From Candidatus Staskawiczbacteria bacterium (GTDB taxonomy: Bacteria; Patescibacteriota; Minisyncoccia; Minisyncoccales; Staskawiczbacteraceae), in assembly GCA_026395175.1 (NCBI GenBank), contig JAPLZF010000009.1, positions 146,083 through 178,960 of the forward strand: a stretch of DNA of 32,878 nt, in the 5' to 3' direction. Shown piece after piece: positions 2,241-32,081 of this stretch (the first letter of the stretch is position 1; every line of letters begins with the position of its first letter). Both the position numbers and the translations under genes were made by a program. Under the pieces are notes generated by a model. It was not told the origin of the DNA, searched no databases, and saw only the letters and a list, made by a program, of their open reading frames with translations.

Positions 2241-2471
2241 TTAAACTTTATCTTCCACGGGCTTTTCCCAGTTGTCTTTTATTTTTTTAATTGCCTGTGC
2301 TTCTTCCTCATTCAAAAGATAAATGTCTTTTAAAGTTTTTAACAATTCTATTCTTTCCTGGCCATCCATTTGGGGCAGTTTATCAAGCAAAACTTTTTTC
2401 TGCCCTTCATCTATTTTCAGGGTTTCAATAAAATTCTTTAAATTGTCATTATTTAAAATAGGATTTACCAT
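2241..2471 (-). CDS. Small helical hypothetical protein (76 aa)
   Basis: ORF 12 bp downstream of the 1083-aa ORF on the same strand; charged helical composition; ends at a shared terminator. Confidence 0.65.
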   Translation of the reverse strand: MVNPILNNDNLKNFIETLKIDEGQKKVLLDKLPQMDGQERIELLKTLKDIYLLNEEEAQAIKKIKDNWEKPVEDKV

Positions 2472-2483
2472 GTCCTTAAAAAT

Positions 2484-5400
2484 TTATTTTATTTCTTTTC
2501 TTATATTTTTAATACCCCTTACAGCTTCCCTATAATTTATTTCACCTCGGCTAAATTTTCCTTGGATATCAGCCACTTTTGCATCAAATTCTCCGAGTTT
2601 TCTCTGTCTATCTTTGCGTATTTTTTCCATGCCATCGCGGGCATTTTTTATTGTCTTTTCCAACTCATCTTTTGCTTTTTCAACTGCTTCATGAGATATT
2701 TTAAGCTGTTCGTCCCTTTCTTTTTGTTTTGTTCTCTCTGATCCATATATTTTCATTGCTGTTATGAACATATCTTGCTTTAGTATTTCGGGCCAATCTT
2801 TATTCATAGCCTCTCTTAAACTATTAATAAGGATTTCCCCTAAATCATCTTTCGGCTCAGTTTTTAAAAATTCCTGAGCTTCTTTATATAATTTTTCATC
2901 TTCTTTAGATAATCTTCCTGCCTCTTCAACAATTTTCGGTTCAGCGGGTTTTTTAGGCACCGGTAAAGCTTCTTCCGGCATTATCACTGGCTCGTATTCT
3001 GCTATTTGAGGTGTTGATTCTACAGCAGGTTCTGCAACTGGTGTTGATTCACTAACCACGGGCGGTTCTGTTGGGCCAGGGGCTGGAGTTTCTTGAAGTT
3101 TTTTTGAAGATTTTTTAGACGCTCCTGGTAGTTTTTTTATAGGTTCGTCAAAAAGCCTTTTTCTTGCTTCAGCATACATTCTTTCCAAAACCGCCACAGC
3201 TATCATTTCGTACTGTTCTGTAGTAGGTATTTTCTCTTCTTTGCCTTCCATGAATTTTTCAAAATCTAAATCATCTATCACAGCATTAACTATTTGCTGT
3301 TTTAACGGGTCCACTGCCAACGCGTTAATTTTTTGCTCTATTTTTTTGTCTACTTGTTCTCGATGATATTTCTCCCATTGTTCTCCTAAATTACCTCTAA
3401 CTTTGCCTTCAATTTCTTGGTTATATTTTTCTTTTGCTTCCTGCACTATTCTTTGATACTCAGCTTCTGTAATTCCAGAATCTTCATTATTTCCAACTTT
3501 TGGAATAAAAATTTTTTCTTCTTTACGCCATTCCCAAAATTTTCCGTCTTTTTTTCTTTCAAGCAAATATGGCTTGTAATTTTGGTTCAAAAGGGCAAAA
3601 AATGTTTCGCCTCCTTGCCTGCCTTTTTCCCGCAAGCTGTTTTCAAAAACTTCTTGCGTAATTTCTCCTTCAAAACCAATAGATTTTTTATATGCTTCTT
3701 TCTGCTCAGCTGAAAGTCTTATCCATTGGCTTTTTATCAACTCTTCATTTTTTAAAAATCTAAAATTATCTTCTATATTTCTAATATTTGGGTCATTTTT
3801 TTGGCCGGCCCAATATTCAACAGCTTCATTTTTAGTCTGACGCCTTGCCTGGGTTTGCATTGCAAAAGATTCTTCTGCATCTTGCTTTACATCTTTTCCT
3901 AACATTTTTCCAGCCAGGCTAGCTCTTGTTAAACGCAACTCTTCCAAATATCTTTCCATTTGCTCAACTTCCGTTGTGTTGCCCGTTGCCCTCAAGCCTG
4001 CAATTTTTCTTTCCTGACGCCTAATGCTTGCCTGCATATAGTTTAACAATAAAAATAGTGTTTCGGGACGCACTTGGCCTTCTTTTACGTCCATTACAAA
4101 AACATCAATTTTTTTCATTCTTTTTTCCAGATTCTCATATCTTGGATCTTTTTCAATTTGCAGGGCAAAGGCCATGGCAGCGTGAATTTTCATCTCCTCT
4201 GAAGAACTTTCAGTTGCGCCTTTTCTAGCCATTTCTTGTTTGTTTCTTTCAAAAAAATCCAGGGCAAATTCTTTTTCTGCCTCAACTCTCTCCTTTTTCA
4301 AAAAATCATCAATACTGCCTTTAATATCTCCCAACTTGGTTTTTCTTATGTATTCATTTTCAATGTCTTTTGTTGCTCTTTCGCGATGCAAAGCAATTTG
4401 CGCTTTGGCTTTTTCCACCTCACTATCACGCAGTTCGGTTTTAGCGCTTGCCTTTGCTTTTTTTGCTTCCAATTTTTCTTCACCCGCAGTTTTTGCTTCT
4501 TCGCCGGTAACTGGCAAAGCAGTTTTCCCATTTGCTTCTTTTTCCTGTTTTAAATATTCTTTTAACTTTCCTGTTGCTTTAAAGTCTTTACCAAAAAATT
4601 CTGCAATAATGTCATTAAGCTTAACTTCTAAAGGCGCATTTTTATCAATTGGCTTTACAACCATATTTCTGTCCACCATGTGCGCTCCTTGCTTAAGGTG
4701 AAACCCAGGAGGGAATTTACCATCATTTACAAGACACAAGAAAAAACTATTTTTTTCTGGGTCGGGAGAATAATTCCAATATCCTTTATATCCCAAAGCT
4801 CTTGCTACTTGAACCCCAAATTTCATTTCTTTTCCAATGTCCACAATAATTTCATTATTAGCTATCATTCCGTTTTTTTTCTTTGCTTCTAAAATCTTTA
4901 CTGATTCTTCAATATTTTTTCTAACATCTTCACTCCTGTTTATTTTTTTGGGTTTTCCGGTTTCTCTATCTTTCTTTATTGTTTGTATTATACCCATCTT
5001 TTTCATTTGCCCCTCTGATAAAAATTTTCTAGAGTCGCCTCCATTTTTAAAAAAATCAAACAAGTCTTCTGGTTTTACACATTTATTCAAACCATAAAGC
5101 GATCTATGAAAATTTTGGAGGCCTCTAGAATTTAAATTATATGATTCATTGTCAACATCATTTACAAAATTAACATACTCATATAAATAATTTCTTTTAA
5201 TTTCTCCATCTGTATAATCAAAATCTTCAATTTTTATCCGCCCTAAAGCCACCATTTTTTCAAACATTATCTTTGTTGCGCATTTGCCGGCTTCTGCATT
5301 TTCGCCGTGATGGTCTGCGTGAAGTCTGCCTTCAGCCAATCCAAATCCTTGATAATTTCCGGTGTCTGCCATAACGTCATTTTTGTTTTCAGGAATATTT

Positions 5401-5735
5401 TCACTTGCTTGTCCGGGCCTAACAAATTTAACTTTATTTAAAAGTCCTGCTAATTCAAGCATTTTTAAAACGCCCCAAGCGTCATGGTCTCCTGGTTTTT
5501 CTACAAATTCTCCTTTTTCATTTATGTAACCGTGTGTAACAGCAGTCTCAAAAAGCCGTTTTAATTCTTCTTCATATTTTTCCTCTCCTTCTTTTATGTT
5601 GCCTGCCCAAAGCGGATGATTGCTTTTTTCATCATATTCGTTTAACCTGTCAAAAATCGCAGGCTTTGCAGCTTCATCAAATCTCTTTAGTTTTTCTTCT
5701 TTTATTTCCTCTGGAGACCTTCTTGTTTCTGCCAT
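2484..5735 (-). CDS. Large hypothetical protein: possible DHH/MYG1-like N-terminal domain plus long coiled coil
   Basis: 1083-aa ORF. N-terminus has ADTGNYQGFGLAEGRLHADHHGENAEAGKCATKIMFEKM...YVNFVNDVDN; remainder is Lys/Glu-rich coiled coil with a Pro-rich linker and helical C-terminus. Confidence 0.8.
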   Translation of the reverse strand: MAETRRSPEEIKEEKLKRFDEAAKPAIFDRLNEYDEKSNHPLWAGNIKEGEEKYEEELKRLFETAVTHGYINEKGEFVEKPGDHDAWGVLKMLELAGLLNKVKFVRPGQASENIPENKNDVMADTGNYQGFGLAEGRLHADHHGENAEAGKCATKIMFEKMVALGRIKIEDFDYTDGEIKRNYLYEYVNFVNDVDNESYNLNSRGLQNFHRSLYGLNKCVKPEDLFDFFKNGGDSRKFLSEGQMKKMGIIQTIKKDRETGKPKKINRSEDVRKNIEESVKILEAKKKNGMIANNEIIVDIGKEMKFGVQVARALGYKGYWNYSPDPEKNSFFLCLVNDGKFPPGFHLKQGAHMVDRNMVVKPIDKNAPLEVKLNDIIAEFFGKDFKATGKLKEYLKQEKEANGKTALPVTGEEAKTAGEEKLEAKKAKASAKTELRDSEVEKAKAQIALHRERATKDIENEYIRKTKLGDIKGSIDDFLKKERVEAEKEFALDFFERNKQEMARKGATESSSEEMKIHAAMAFALQIEKDPRYENLEKRMKKIDVFVMDVKEGQVRPETLFLLLNYMQASIRRQERKIAGLRATGNTTEVEQMERYLEELRLTRASLAGKMLGKDVKQDAEESFAMQTQARRQTKNEAVEYWAGQKNDPNIRNIEDNFRFLKNEELIKSQWIRLSAEQKEAYKKSIGFEGEITQEVFENSLREKGRQGGETFFALLNQNYKPYLLERKKDGKFWEWRKEEKIFIPKVGNNEDSGITEAEYQRIVQEAKEKYNQEIEGKVRGNLGEQWEKYHREQVDKKIEQKINALAVDPLKQQIVNAVIDDLDFEKFMEGKEEKIPTTEQYEMIAVAVLERMYAEARKRLFDEPIKKLPGASKKSSKKLQETPAPGPTEPPVVSESTPVAEPAVESTPQIAEYEPVIMPEEALPVPKKPAEPKIVEEAGRLSKEDEKLYKEAQEFLKTEPKDDLGEILINSLREAMNKDWPEILKQDMFITAMKIYGSERTKQKERDEQLKISHEAVEKAKDELEKTIKNARDGMEKIRKDRQRKLGEFDAKVADIQGKFSRGEINYREAVRGIKNIRKEIK

Positions 5736-5807
5736 AATTTTTTATTATATTTGTTAATTTTACCATTGCCACATAATAAGTCAATTTTTAGAAAATACTA
5801 CCGGCTA

Positions 5808-7507: not shown

Positions 7508-8236
7508 TTATTCTTCTAAAAACAAACCTCTGTTTTGAGCAATGTTGTTTTTGTACTCTAACCAATTTTTAATAGCGTCTCTACACCCTCCCGCTTCACT
7601 CATAGATTCAAATAAAAAATTTCTTTCAGTTACAGATGAAAAATTCTTTTTCCCAATATAATCTTGATAACTCGACCACTTATAATTTTCTAAAAATTCA
7701 ATTGATTTATCAATATCACTAATTCCTTTTTCTTTCCATCCCGGCTCGTATAGAGAAAGGGGATTAACATGAATATAATTAAAAACAGTCATAAGCTGAT
7801 TGTCATTTTCTACACTGACCGATTTAAACGCATCCTGAAAAACATGTCCTTTTCTTTGATACTTTTTATTAAAATATTTACTTAGGCCAATACCAACTTT
7901 TTGCATAAATTTTGAAACACCGCCATCTTTTATTTGTTTTACTAAGAGATGTATATGATTTGGCATAAAGCAGAAGGCTAATACTTCCACAAATTTATCT
8001 CGCTCATCTAAAATTGTAGGACTCCCGAAGTCGCTCAATTTTTCTCTTTTCTTTTCAACTTTACGATCTCGTCGTCTAATAAAGATAGTTACGGGCTTAG
8101 AATTATTAAATTCGTAAATTGAAAAAATTCCACGAAAATAATCATTAGTGTTTTTAAAAATCAAATTGTCATCAAGCGCCCGCATAACAATGTGATAAAT
8201 ATCTCCTGTTATAAATTGTTCTTTTCTTCTTGGCAT
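7508..8236 (-). mobile_element. REP-associated tyrosine transposase (RAYT, Y1_Tnp/IS200-like)
   Basis: MPRRKEQFITGDIYHIVMRALDDNLIF..., HUH motif region FCFMPNHIHLLV, GHVFQDAFKSVSV, YIHVNPL. ATG at 8236 preferred over the GTG at 8260 in the track. Confidence 0.92.
8013..8045. repeat. REP-like repeat copy inside the RAYT coding sequence
   Basis: attgtaggactcccgaagtcgctcaatttttctc; matches the copy at 8239 over ~30 nt with one difference. Confidence 0.8.
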
Positions 8237-8238
8237 AA

Positions 8239-8267
8239 ATTGTAGGACTCCCGAAGTCACTCAATTT
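8239..8267. repeat. REP-like repeat at the RAYT 5' end
   Basis: attgtaggactcccgaagtcactcaattttt: GTAG tetranucleotide followed by GACT-CCCGA-AGTC hairpin. Confidence 0.8.
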
Positions 8268-10612: not shown

Positions 10613-13600
10613 TTATTGATGAACCGCTGTATTTGATGACCAAATCACCTTGCCGGCTGTATCATAAATCACAAGATTACCATCTGGTTGCACATACAAA
10701 CCGCCGGCTGGCGTTCCAAATTTCATCGTAGCCCATAATGCTTTGCGGATAGTTGAATCAAGAGAATCATAAATCACAAGATTGCCGTCTGATTGCATAG
10801 TAAGCTTTGCCGAAGTTTTGCCAGCTGTATTCGTTGTATTGGAAGCCCATAAAACTTTATTAGAAACATTATAGAGCACTGCATTGCCGTCTTTTTGGAG
10901 GGTTAGTCTATATGTTCCATTACAAGACATGACAGACTGCCCAGGGGTAAGCGACGATCCAATACGAAGTATTCCACATTCAGCCACGCTAAAATAATTA
11001 TCCGATGAGTCATAAACTGATTTGTTATCGGCGTCAGTTATTTTTATCTTGAAATTATTGCCGCCAACCATGCTACTTGGGATGCTTGGATAATTGTAGG
11101 AACCAATATTGTCAGCCAATAAACTTATCATTATAAAAGGTGAATCATTTTTAGTAATTTCAATAGAAATCTTTGAAGATACTCCTGCAGATTTCCATGT
11201 AATTGGAATTGACTGATTTGAAGAAAACGTTTCTCCTCCATTTGGTGAAGTAACGGTAACGGGCGACCTACAATCATAACACCCTGTATGTTGGGAGTCG
11301 TGTTGCAACATCGGCCAATCCATCAATGATGAATCATAAAAAGCATATAGTCCAAAAATATAAATAAATTTTGAAGAAGTGGCTATTAGCTCTGTTTTAC
11401 CATCACCGTTAACATCAGATAGAATCATTGTTCCATTAGAAGGTGAATCTATTTTTTTAGGAAATCCACTAATAGGAGACCCGTTTAGATCATAGGCATA
11501 AATATTATTAGTTTGAGAAGAATTAACAACAATATCTTCTCCAATTCCGTTGTCTATATTAGCTATAAGAGGATCTCCATCAAGGAGGCCAGGCTCTGCA
11601 GGAATAGGAAAATTAGGTAATGGTTTCCCTATACGATCAACCAACTGTAAATTCCCAAGCCAATCGCTGTAAGCTATTTCTGGATAACCATCTTTATTAA
11701 TATCTCCAATTGCAAATCTTGAGATAACGCTGTCGTATTCCGTTCCATTATAAGTATACCTTTGATTAGTCCACCCGCTAAGATTGCTTCCATCGCCGTT
11801 AAGCGCATACCCATGATCGAATATTTCATATTTCCCGTCATTATTAATATCGGCTGAAGCTAACGACCAATTCCAAAGTTCATTGTTATGAAGAAAAATT
11901 TTATTGCCCTTATAGTCAAATGCCTCAACGGCACCACCTGTAAGATCTATTTTAATTAATCCACAAATAATTTCTTTATATCCATCATTGTTGATATCTG
12001 ATAAAACAGGTTCGCTTCTTGGCAGATAATTATTTGGAACACTAACTGGCCAGCCAGATAAAATTTTGCCTTTATAGTTAAATGCATATATTTTCGTTCC
12101 AACGTTGCCAGTTGACATCCCTGTTCCAACGATTATTTCATTATATCCATCATTATTAATATCACCTATGCTTGCCATCTGGGGTGCGTCGCCGGTGATT
12201 GGATCAATTATTTGAGGCCAGCCATTGAGTTCTGTACCGTCTGATGCAAAAACATGTACCCTGCTGTAAGGCCCGGCGGGATTTGTACTTTCGATAACAA
12301 TTATTTCTTTTTTTCCATCATTATTTATATCACTAACAAGTATACTCTTGACGGGCCATCCGATTAATTTCGGCCAGCTTGCAGAAAACTGTTTTCCCGT
12401 ATAATTAAGAATATTTAAAGATACATAGTTAGAGGAGTCATAATAGGAATAAATTATTTCTTGTTTTCCATCATTATTTAAATCGGCAACAGCTATTTTT
12501 GTAAGAGAATCACTCTCAATCGGCCATCCATCTAAAATATTTGGGTCGTGGACTAAACTCACATTCAAATTTGCGGTTGATCCTTCTTGAATATTTACAT
12601 TTAATATTACATCTGAGTATCCTGTTTTACTCACTTTAATTGTTCTACCGCCAATATTTAAACTTGTAGTCAATGGTGTCTGGCCACGATAAATATAATT
12701 GCCAATAGCCAGATCTTTAATATAGACATCTGCTCCGCTGATATTTGATATTATAGAAAGAATGCCGATTTTATTAGACGATATACCACAATTATCATTA
12801 TTAAGGATTTTAGAACTATCATCGCAATCTTCTATTATCTGATCTTTACAAGAATTCGGACATCCAATAGCTGGTTTTGGTCCAATGCCCCAATAACAGA
12901 ATTTATCCATATCATTATCAGTACAAATAACTGATTGTGAAGTTGGCGATTTTGGTCCATCAACTACAAAAGCATACCAGGAACTGATGTTTGAATCATC
13001 GGCATAAATTCTGAAATAACCGTTCTCACCCCAAGCAGTTCCCCAACTGTTTTTGACAATCCAATAGTCACGACCATCATTTTTACCAAAACCAACGATG
13101 GTAACAGAGTGAGCTCCAGAAGCAGCAAAACCATTAATATCATGCTGATAAATTCCACTCTTATAACTAAAAAAATCAGGGTAAACATACATACCGACAT
13201 CAACCGGTCCGTTTGTAATTAATGCTTTCTTGATTTTATTAATATTATCAGCTAAATTGTCAGTTAAATCAATTCTTTTGTAGCTTAAATCTTTCCAGGC
13301 GGTTTTTTGCCAATTTATCAATTTAGCTGAACAGGGAGTATCAGTGGTCGAGTAGGGAAAAGAGCTTTCAACGGCATTGCCGGTATTGACCCAATATGTT
13401 TTGAAAATAGTTTCAATTTGGTAATCATAAGCGCCTGAGCAGCCACCAACCCCATCACTGGAATAAGGAATAGCGCAAGAAACTAAATCTTGCTCAGCCA
13501 AATTAGGAATTAAATTTGGGTTATTGTAATAAGCCTGAATATGGCCTTCAAAAGTAGCATCTGCACCGAATGCCCAGCAACTGCCACAATTACCTTGATC

Positions 13601-14194
13601 TTTTACAGAAGTTATGTAATTTTTTCCACCGACACTGCGCCAATCATAAAAATCGGGCAAGGTCGGATCGCTTTTTACAGATTTCGACCCGGATTTTAAC
13701 ACTGGAGGTTTACCTAATAAACCGGTTAATTGCTTTTTTTGCGCATCAGTTAATATTATTTTCTCATTCCAGCCGACTTGCCAATCCAAACCATTGGTCG
13801 AAATAGCGATTTGAGTTTGTTTTAATTGATAATTCAATTCTTGTTGACGGGCCGAAGAAAGCGCCATTAGTTTAGCCTTTAAAGATGCTCCTACATTTGA
13901 TTTAGTATTAAATTGCGAATAATCAATATCACAACCCTTATAAATCTTAACACCGTTTACTATCGACAAAATCCGACAATTATTTGTATTATTCAAACTA
14001 TTTCCATAATTAGTAAGCGAGGCAGTTGATTTAGTTTTTATATATGATATTAATGTTGGAGATACTCTAACAATGTCTGCGACAGAAAAAGCAATGATCA
14101 AAAGACTACAAACAAGAAATGTAGTTTTAATAATCTTTTTCTGTTTATCTGGTTCAGGTGTTTCTTCAAATTGATTTCGCATATTATTTTGCAT
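10613..14194 (-). CDS. Secreted/anchored multidomain C1A papain-like peptidase with PEGA, FG-GAP/VCBS repeats and C-terminal B-lectin domain
   Basis: N-terminal TM; VKDQGNCGSCWAFGA, GAHSVTIVGFGKNDGRDYWIVKNSWGTAWGENGYFRIY; PEGA-like GGRTIKVSKTGYSDV; repeated DINNDGYxEII; PNGGETFSSNQSIPITW; QSDGNLVIYD x2. Confidence 0.92.
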   Translation of the reverse strand: MQNNMRNQFEETPEPDKQKKIIKTTFLVCSLLIIAFSVADIVRVSPTLISYIKTKSTASLTNYGNSLNNTNNCRILSIVNGVKIYKGCDIDYSQFNTKSNVGASLKAKLMALSSARQQELNYQLKQTQIAISTNGLDWQVGWNEKIILTDAQKKQLTGLLGKPPVLKSGSKSVKSDPTLPDFYDWRSVGGKNYITSVKDQGNCGSCWAFGADATFEGHIQAYYNNPNLIPNLAEQDLVSCAIPYSSDGVGGCSGAYDYQIETIFKTYWVNTGNAVESSFPYSTTDTPCSAKLINWQKTAWKDLSYKRIDLTDNLADNINKIKKALITNGPVDVGMYVYPDFFSYKSGIYQHDINGFAASGAHSVTIVGFGKNDGRDYWIVKNSWGTAWGENGYFRIYADDSNISSWYAFVVDGPKSPTSQSVICTDNDMDKFCYWGIGPKPAIGCPNSCKDQIIEDCDDSSKILNNDNCGISSNKIGILSIISNISGADVYIKDLAIGNYIYRGQTPLTTSLNIGGRTIKVSKTGYSDVILNVNIQEGSTANLNVSLVHDPNILDGWPIESDSLTKIAVADLNNDGKQEIIYSYYDSSNYVSLNILNYTGKQFSASWPKLIGWPVKSILVSDINNDGKKEIIVIESTNPAGPYSRVHVFASDGTELNGWPQIIDPITGDAPQMASIGDINNDGYNEIIVGTGMSTGNVGTKIYAFNYKGKILSGWPVSVPNNYLPRSEPVLSDINNDGYKEIICGLIKIDLTGGAVEAFDYKGNKIFLHNNELWNWSLASADINNDGKYEIFDHGYALNGDGSNLSGWTNQRYTYNGTEYDSVISRFAIGDINKDGYPEIAYSDWLGNLQLVDRIGKPLPNFPIPAEPGLLDGDPLIANIDNGIGEDIVVNSSQTNNIYAYDLNGSPISGFPKKIDSPSNGTMILSDVNGDGKTELIATSSKFIYIFGLYAFYDSSLMDWPMLQHDSQHTGCYDCRSPVTVTSPNGGETFSSNQSIPITWKSAGVSSKISIEITKNDSPFIMISLLADNIGSYNYPSIPSSMVGGNNFKIKITDADNKSVYDSSDNYFSVAECGILRIGSSLTPGQSVMSCNGTYRLTLQKDGNAVLYNVSNKVLWASNTTNTAGKTSAKLTMQSDGNLVIYDSLDSTIRKALWATMKFGTPAGGLYVQPDGNLVIYDTAGKVIWSSNTAVHQ

Positions 14195-14719: not shown

Positions 14720-15277
14720 ATGGAAAATCAAGAAGCAAAAAATTTAATAGCTAATTCCAAAAATGTCTATTTGATAGCTTCAGAAGAGCCAGAGGCAATT
14801 ACTGCTGTATTGGCTCTTTTTTATACTTTAAAAGAATTAGGCAAAAATGTAAACCTGCTAATGGATACTTTGCCAGAAAACCTTAAATTTTTATCTCCAT
14901 CTTTAGACTTTATTTCTTATCCTAAAAATTTTGTAATTTCCGTGCCAAATAATGTTGCTAAAATTTCCCAAGTCTATTACGAAAAAAATGACGACGCGTT
15001 AAAAGTACATTTAACATTGGAAAGTGGTAATATAAAGAAAGACAACATTGCCTTTTATTTTTCAGAAGCAAAGCCTGACTTAATTATTACCGTTGGCATC
15101 AAAAATTATGTAAAAGAATTATCAGAAAAATTAAACTCTTTCGGCTTTTTACTGGATTCTCCAGTTTTGAACATAGATAATAATTCGCAGGAAAATCAAA
15201 AATTTGGTAAAATTAATTTGATAGAAGGCACGCCCTTGCTGGAAATTATCATGAAATTAATAATTAATTTACATTAA
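14720..15277 (+). CDS. Degenerate, truncated DHH-family (NrnA/RecJ-like) protein
   Basis: 185 aa with DHH-domain-like layout; terminal motif SPVLNIDNNSQENQKFGKINLIEGTPLLEII resembles IDHHxxNxxFGxxNxV but with DNN. Confidence 0.65.
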   Translation: MENQEAKNLIANSKNVYLIASEEPEAITAVLALFYTLKELGKNVNLLMDTLPENLKFLSPSLDFISYPKNFVISVPNNVAKISQVYYEKNDDALKVHLTLESGNIKKDNIAFYFSEAKPDLIITVGIKNYVKELSEKLNSFGFLLDSPVLNIDNNSQENQKFGKINLIEGTPLLEIIMKLIINLH

Positions 15278-21230: not shown

Positions 21231-22046
21231 ATGGATAAAGAAATAATAATAAATTCTCTTAATAAAGATTTTGAGAATATTAAAAAAATTGATAAAAATG
21301 GCGTGGAATATTGGCATGCAAGAGAACTATTGCCTTTATTAGGTTATCCAAATTGGCAGAAGGCAGAAGAAGTTATCGCCAGAGCAGCTAAAGCTTGTAT
21401 AAATAGCGGTCAGGCTGTGGATAACCATTTTAACCAACTGGTTAAAATGGTCGAAATAGGTTCAGGAACTGTCCGAGAAGTGAAGGATTGGAAATTAGAC
21501 AGATACGCCTGTTATTTAATCGCCCAAAATGGCAATTCGAAAAAATCTGAAATAGCCATGGCTCAGACATATTTTGCCATACAAACTCGAAAGCAGGAAA
21601 TATTTGAAACTCTTTCAGGAACTGATAAAAGGTTATTCATTAGGGGAGAAGTGTCGGCAGAAAATAAAAAGCTTTTTAGCACAGCAAAAGGAGCTGGTGT
21701 TACAAAATTTGGTTCGTTTAATGACGCAGGCTATAAGGGATTATATGGAATGCCACTTGCAAATATTGAAAGCAAAAAAGGTATAAAAAAGGGAGAACTT
21801 TTAGACAGAGCGGGCACAACCGAATTGGCGGCAAATTTGTTTCGCATTACTCAGACTGACGAAAAAATAAAAAAAGATAATATTAGAGGAGATGATATGG
21901 CATCAAGAACACATTTTATGGTTGGTGGAAAAGTTCGCCAAACTATAAAAGACATAGGCGGAACGCTTCCGGAAAATCTTCCGCCAGAGAAACATATTAA
22001 AGAGTTAAAAAGTGAAAAGAAAAAACTTTTAAAAAAGAAAAATTAA
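21231..22046 (+). CDS. dinD: DNA damage-inducible protein D-like (DinD, BRO-N type)
   Basis: NGVEYWHARELLPLLGYPNWQKAEEVIARAAKACINSGQAVDNHF...LDRYACYLIAQNGNSKKSEIAMAQTYFAIQTRKQE. Confidence 0.9.
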   Translation: MDKEIIINSLNKDFENIKKIDKNGVEYWHARELLPLLGYPNWQKAEEVIARAAKACINSGQAVDNHFNQLVKMVEIGSGTVREVKDWKLDRYACYLIAQNGNSKKSEIAMAQTYFAIQTRKQEIFETLSGTDKRLFIRGEVSAENKKLFSTAKGAGVTKFGSFNDAGYKGLYGMPLANIESKKGIKKGELLDRAGTTELAANLFRITQTDEKIKKDNIRGDDMASRTHFMVGGKVRQTIKDIGGTLPENLPPEKHIKELKSEKKKLLKKKN

Positions 22047-30716: not shown

Positions 30717-32081
30717 TTATTTTTGTATTGGAATAATAATCATGCAATTAGGAACTACATTGCTATTATTCCTTATATTTTGCCATTTTATTTGCTGGGG
30801 ACCGAATTTGTTTGCATCTTTGCTGGTTGGAAATTCTTGGCAGAAAGTCCATGGCGTAATATTACAACTTTGTCCCGGACTGGCATAAGTGAATAGAACA
30901 ATATAATCATTGTGTATTATCATAGACGAAATGTTTTCTCCGCCCAGAGACGGCGAAATCTTGCTGATGCAATTTCCGCTTTGGCCATATCCTGCGCAAG
31001 GTTTTTCATTTTCCGGCACGTCATTGAATTGCAATGGATTATTTTGGTCGTCTAACGCATGGATATAAACCCCGGCGTTTTTGATTTCATCATTTGTCAC
31101 TTTATACCACCCGCCACTATCTTTTTTACATTGCGCAATTAAATCGCCGACACTATCACTATTGCCCATATTATCAACGCATATGCCAGTGCTTGTGTTG
31201 CAGGTTTCTCCATTAGTACAATCATCATTGGATGCGCAATAATGTTTGAGACATGATTTGCGGAAAAAATATACTCCGTCGTCATTTGCATCAAAATCAT
31301 ATTTATAAACAGATGCCGATGCCGCAAATGGGCTTACATTTTGGCAAGTTTCATTTGTATTTTCTTTAGTAGTGGTAATCTCCTGGCATTTTCCCCAAAA
31401 ATTAATATTATCATACAAAACAGTTATATAGGCAGTTTGGGTATCGGCATCTTGGACAATGCCTACTGAATTTATTTTGTTTCTCAAATTATCTCCTAAA
31501 TCTGGAATACTTGTTATGTTTGCTTTGGCGGTATTTTTAGGGTCGTCAGAACAGCCAGTTTTTTTGTAAAAATAAACGCCCGGAGCTTTTTTCGGCGAGC
31601 AGTCAGCATCTTTTAAGCAGGAAGCGCCTGTTCCGTCGGCAACACATTGGTTGTTGCTGTTGCAGGCCGTTGTCGGCAGTTCATCAAACTTAAAAAAACT
31701 AAGCTGGGGATTTATTGTTGTTATAATTAAATATGTCAATGTTAAAATAAGCAGGCCGGATATTGCTCCGCCAATTCTGTCTTTCGCTTCGCCCAGCAAG
31801 TCGGGTTTTGCCGGTGACAAAAGATACATTATTCCCGCGATAATTAAAGAAACAAGGACAGAAAAAAACCCAAGAAACATTCCGGCATCAAACAAATATT
31901 TTACATAAGCGGGCAATTTTGCGTCTGTCGCTAACGTTGTGGTTCCAATGGCAGGATATATTACTTCCAAGCCCGCAGCAGAAATTTTATTTATTGGCAA
32001 GCAAAAAAAACATACAGGCAAAAAAATTAAAAGATAAACCAGGGAGAAAACTTTTTTATTTTTTTTTATTATGTCATGCAT
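30717..32081 (-). CDS. Membrane protein with pilin/VirB2-like TM pair and Cys-rich 'GVYFY' repeats
   Basis: Signal/TM, second and third TMs (YLFDAGMFLGFFSVLVSLIIAGIMYLL; IGGAISGLLILTLTYLIITTI), then Cys-rich extracellular part with GVYFYKKTGC and GVYFFRKSC. Confidence 0.75.
   Translation of the reverse strand: MHDIIKKNKKVFSLVYLLIFLPVCFFCLPINKISAAGLEVIYPAIGTTTLATDAKLPAYVKYLFDAGMFLGFFSVLVSLIIAGIMYLLSPAKPDLLGEAKDRIGGAISGLLILTLTYLIITTINPQLSFFKFDELPTTACNSNNQCVADGTGASCLKDADCSPKKAPGVYFYKKTGCSDDPKNTAKANITSIPDLGDNLRNKINSVGIVQDADTQTAYITVLYDNINFWGKCQEITTTKENTNETCQNVSPFAASASVYKYDFDANDDGVYFFRKSCLKHYCASNDDCTNGETCNTSTGICVDNMGNSDSVGDLIAQCKKDSGGWYKVTNDEIKNAGVYIHALDDQNNPLQFNDVPENEKPCAGYGQSGNCISKISPSLGGENISSMIIHNDYIVLFTYASPGQSCNITPWTFCQEFPTSKDANKFGPQQIKWQNIRNNSNVVPNCMIIIPIQK

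Follow-up and report, generated by a model that had tools for sequence, protein, structure and literature searches.

We found that a 1083-aa protein (P0001), encoded in a window of 32,878 nucleotides that constitutes the whole stretch of Candidatus Staskawiczbacteria DNA analysed here, begins with a domain (residues 1-409) that is supported as a divergent branch of the DHH-superfamily phosphoesterases, and continues into a long helical tail. It is rather probable, in our judgement, that P0001 is a small-nucleotide phosphodiesterase head carried on a scaffold, to which the product of the small gene next to it (P0002) binds. The kind of enzyme is known, while the family of residues 1-409 and its arrangement appear to be undescribed, since no published description of the family was found in the literature searched, which omits most subscription journals.

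P0001 is a single unbroken ORF that occupies exactly 2484-5735 of the minus strand; the initial annotation had given the same length and limits, leaving the strand unstated. The plus strand across this interval is crowded with stops. At about 34% GC, chance cannot account for an open frame of 1083 codons, and the same residues are kept by homologues from other genomes. The stop codon of P0001 and the start of P0002 are separated by 12 bases, a terminator-like hairpin follows P0002, and a promoter-like site occurs some 20 bases 5' of the P0001 ATG, in the gap to a divergent rpsT (identified by eye), so that P0001 and P0002 look like one compact two-gene transcription unit, which is flanked on its other side by a convergent uvrB. 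By eye, P0001 has no evident signal peptide or membrane segment and would thus be cytoplasmic. The features of the locus are listed in Table 1.

Table 1. Features of the P0001-P0002 locus, in window positions
Feature	Position	Strand	Basis
P0001, 1083-aa ORF: DHH-like domain and helical tail	2484..5735	-	ORF call; homologues
DHH-like phosphoesterase domain, residues 1-409	4509..5735	-	alignments A1-A3, A5; HHalign; AlphaFold
Motif I, D83-x-D85	5481..5489	-	22-row alignment, D85 invariant
Motif II, D124-T-G	5358..5366	-	alignment
Motif III, D141-H142-H143	5307..5315	-	alignment
Motif IV, D195	5151..5153	-	invariant in 22 rows
Helical tail, residues 410-1083	2487..4508	-	AlphaFold; pairwise comparison
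Long predicted helix, residues 439-508	4212..4421	-	AlphaFold, low confidence
Pro/Ala-rich linker, probably disordered, residues ~864-936	2928..3146	-	AlphaFold; sequence
Long predicted helix, residues 983-1062	2550..2789	-	AlphaFold, low confidence
P0002, 76-aa helical partner protein	2241..2471	-	ORF; recurrence in other genomes
Promoter-like site TTGACT-16-TAAAAT with TG	5757..5784	-	consensus match only
Terminator-like hairpin with T tail, directly 3' of P0002	2211..2238	-	sequence

Searches with single sequences against Pfam, NCBIfam, PDB and phage libraries gave no match, no single member of the family reached the PF01368 gathering score in the Pfam search, and the family has no Pfam or NCBIfam entry. 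DHH proteins, the group that had been proposed from the N-terminus, were reached above the null by profile comparison. HHalign against canonical patescibacterial PF01368 proteins gave scores of 34-41, and for the score of 41, which has motifs I-III in register, the 11 unrelated control families stood at 24 or less. The firmest step supporting DHH membership is indirect and runs through a linking family of short patescibacterial proteins of about 285 aa (L022, L023, L034, L035), to which HHalign aligns our family at 98.4% over 215 columns; each of these four proteins matches PF01368 in turn (best E 2.3e-5). They differ from the family in being short and without a tail, in having no visible partner, and in a motif I that is canonical and complete (THxxPDxDA). 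They match Pfam DHH and ChrB_C about equally, hinting that ChrB_C may itself be a DHH relative. As to other profile matches, those of profile A1 to PPR entries were discarded, being traced to one repeated 33-residue helix pattern, and profile A8 matched VPS28 and similar entries.

The initial annotation had also suggested a MYG1-type exonuclease, and the wording of the motifs (DTG...DHH) is indeed similar. Three patescibacterial MYG1 proteins, however, scored 20-27 in HHalign, about the level of the unrelated controls (up to 25.6) and below the DHH proteins, and PF03690 was not matched; we therefore regard a MYG1 identity as extremely unlikely and did not retain it.

The AlphaFold model of the domain (8-row alignment) reached pLDDT 72 and pTM 0.74, falling below pLDDT 50 at residues 107-146, around motifs II-III. 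DHH entries come first in Foldseek and make up most of its top rows, weakly, with E of at least 0.027 and TM of at most 0.41 for a model that is weak at those motifs. The unrelated fold that the initial annotation had named as the outcome against its proposal did not appear, with the reservation that the modelled fold is of low confidence precisely around motifs II-III. In this sense, DHH membership rests mainly on the sequence profiles. Credible matches of the 22-row profile in the PDB were limited to PggH (7d62, E 7e-4) and to 6mtz, an uncharacterised protein (E 0.005). PggH, the pGpG-specific DHH phosphodiesterase of Vibrio cholerae, shares the DHH motif, aligns with motifs I and III in register and, as our family, apparently misses the usual motif I histidine (SDFDG, pattern SDxDG, in the HMMER alignment). 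It differs in that the match spans only profile positions 74-165, with TM of at most 0.39, and in lacking a giant tail.

As the closest solved structures include NrN and PggH, and NrN degrades SAM-AMP beside CorA (PMC10600005), the domain could be imagined as the off switch of an anti-phage or nucleotide-signal system. We consider this very improbable, because no credible PADLOC match was obtained and the neighbours are housekeeping genes, with no adjacent cyclase or CRISPR gene.

The main alignment comprises 22 domains with 17-34% identity to the window protein. D85 and D195 are its sole invariant positions, and D124, D141 and H143 are each conserved in at least 90% of the rows. The N-terminal residues from which a DHH layout had been read are present and correspond to motifs II-IV, conserved in the distant family; motif I, which reads GDHDA in the window protein, lies upstream of them. 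With the PF01368, NrnA and RecJ proteins the family shares the order of motifs I-III, the DTG, the DHH and a late Asp, and it differs from them in lacking a gathering-level match and in its C-terminal half. The latter ends in QG..VR..MWIKP, and in the alignment QG..VR takes the place of the DHHA1 GGGH motif, whose absence argues for a divergent DHH branch. The histidine that in NrnA stands four residues before the DxD is E79 in the window protein and is also not His in the rest of the family. The metal ligands of D. radiodurans NrnA, a DHH/DHHA1 protein (D38, D40, D95, H121 and D171; PMC11229311), correspond to the conserved motif I-IV positions of the family. By this likeness, D83, D85, D124, H142 and D195 would probably hold two metal ions (Mn2+ or Mg2+), and the domain would use them to hydrolyse phosphodiester bonds of small nucleotides, for example nanoRNA, pAp and dinucleotides, whether linear or cyclic.

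A domain of this kind may also have lost catalysis and have kept a binding or structural role, Cdc45 being such a non-catalytic case among RecJ relatives. In agreement, some divergent members show motif decay (DEDN, DEND, or N replacing the first Asp), motif III being degenerate in a few distant ones, which may leave some of the family without activity, and the branch of the window protein in the tree is long (1.71 against a median of 0.66). We judge an inactive head unlikely for P0001, since all seven motif residues are retained at only 33% identity to the syntenic sister domain of a genus-mate (G011), which suggests selection for catalysis. At the holA-uvrB site, the flanking proteins of the two genomes are 66-85% identical. 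In the tree the window domain has that of G011 as its sister (99/98), which together with the long window branch indicates that the gene diverges fast in place with its motif residues staying; horizontal replacement at this site is disfavoured for the domain by the same sister relation.

The family comprises about 29 members, short kin excluded, and all of them belong to Patescibacteria or to unclassified MAGs. In the initial whole-genome search, 3 of 11 genus-mates proved to carry a homologue, and the samples from the remainder of the family and of the order had none. Profile searches extended the membership across the phylum, to about 2-3% of the genomes sampled, with a higher share in certain groups, and recovered seven named loci, three of which are the genus-mates found earlier. 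Viral contigs contained no relative. Members range from 339 to 2215 aa, and the domain may stand at the start of the protein (window, G011, L077), in the middle (L016, L053, L070), at the end (L060, L067, L072) or alone (L025, L026, L054, L066). Beyond the DHH-like domain, sequence is common only to close groups of members.

In agreement with this, other members carry tails unrelated to that of P0001. The fusion of the N-terminal domain to a giant coiled coil, as it had been described, is real as a fusion, and the coiled coil was overstated: at low confidence (pLDDT 48, pTM 0.34, 5-row alignment), the full-length AlphaFold model depicts a mixed helical region with two long helices, a set of shorter ones, a beta hairpin (723-738) and a disordered linker. 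The window tail resembles weakly the tail of L077 (E 0.002; 26.6 bits, where 60 shuffles reached no more than 22.7). Its similarity to a protein of G044 falls within the shuffle range, and it has none to the tail of the syntenic G011 protein.

The 76-aa helical partner noticed initially proved to be a conserved neighbour, as a second lineage has the pair too and small neighbours are widespread. In L077, from another Parcubacterium, the DHH head and the weakly similar tail are followed by a 71-aa protein that shares 47% identity with P0002. In G044, of the same order as the window, a P0002-like protein of 78 aa (E 1.2e-19) comes directly after a 507-aa protein that resembles the L077 tail (E 5e-11), and the genome has no match to the DHH-like domain. 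The DHH head and the tail-partner unit are thus separable. As this unit occurs elsewhere without the domain, the DHH enzyme would most aptly be regarded as an interchangeable head of a scaffold complex, whose helical tail most likely binds P0002, the product of the probably co-transcribed gene. P0002 itself matches phrog_32056, of unknown function (E 8e-4).

A DUF5663-like (PF18908) small helical protein is adjacent in 14 of 25 large DHH carriers, and two further large carriers have a P0002-like partner, while the four stand-alone members lack both kinds of neighbour. When the DUF5663 profile was run against the 1545 ORFs encoded in the retrieved loci, almost every match lay beside the DHH giant, a count of adjacency and not of genome-wide exclusivity, as the DHH gene was the basis on which these loci had been selected. 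DUF5663 resembles P0002 in its place beside large DHH carriers, with the differences that it also adjoins large ORFs without DHH and that P0002 shows no detectable homology to it; a kinship between the two was discarded (no hmmscan match, HHalign 1%). DUF5663 is unmentioned in the literature searched, and the present family links it to a repeated gene pair. In G011 (L073:14397-15087), a DUF5663-like protein of 95 aa lies about 4.4 kb from the DHH giant, next to one of 119 aa that contains a hydrophobic stretch rich in glycine.

Another explanation for a large, modular and fast-changing protein may be that P0001 is a type IV secretion substrate with P0002 as its chaperone, the DHH head acting on host-cell nucleotides. 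VirD4-like coupling ATPases occur near the pair in L053, L075, L078 and G044, but these are only 4 of about 30 loci and no such gene is near in the window; with 5,713 VirD4 homologues across 2,918 patescibacterial genomes (PMC12102498), chance proximity is plausible. We consider secretion quite improbable and prefer a phosphodiesterase head on a partner-binding scaffold. A broader proposal, which is speculative and to our mind also doubtful, is an undescribed modular system of Patescibacteria in which a small helical protein, DUF5663-like or P0002-like, accompanies a fast-diversifying giant scaffold with exchangeable heads, the DHH branch being one of them and perhaps acting on host or phage nucleotides. 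Patescibacterial genomes are tiny, yet some devote 2-6 kb to one such giant. The DHH active site gives an enzymatic handle on proteins otherwise labelled hypothetical, and the stand-alone members (339-402 aa) are directly expressible and assayable.

Genome analysis denotes that a PF01368 DHH gene is present in 15 of 15 sampled relatives of the source genome (G000; 744 kb, 19 contigs, 95.5% complete); none was found in G000, an absence that is unsure at this completeness. Elsewhere in the window, a 185-aa protein (14720-15277, plus strand) resembles the N-terminal half of an NrnA-type DHH protein, with no DHH motif and no Pfam match. A 1193-aa protein (10613-14194, minus strand) combines a papain-family C1 protease, PEGA, FG-GAP repeats and a mannose-binding-lectin-like end, and is likely a secreted protease-adhesin. 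Near dnaA-yidC, a 454-aa protein without Pfam match (30717-32081, minus strand) has an N-terminal membrane region like VirB2/TrbC pilin; dnaA and dnaN have been reported near virB4 in the same class (PMC12102498). An IS200-like (Y1) transposase-family protein (7508-8260, minus strand) lies between mutM and the holA region, and a BRO-N domain protein like DinD (21231-22046, plus strand) immediately precedes ruvC.
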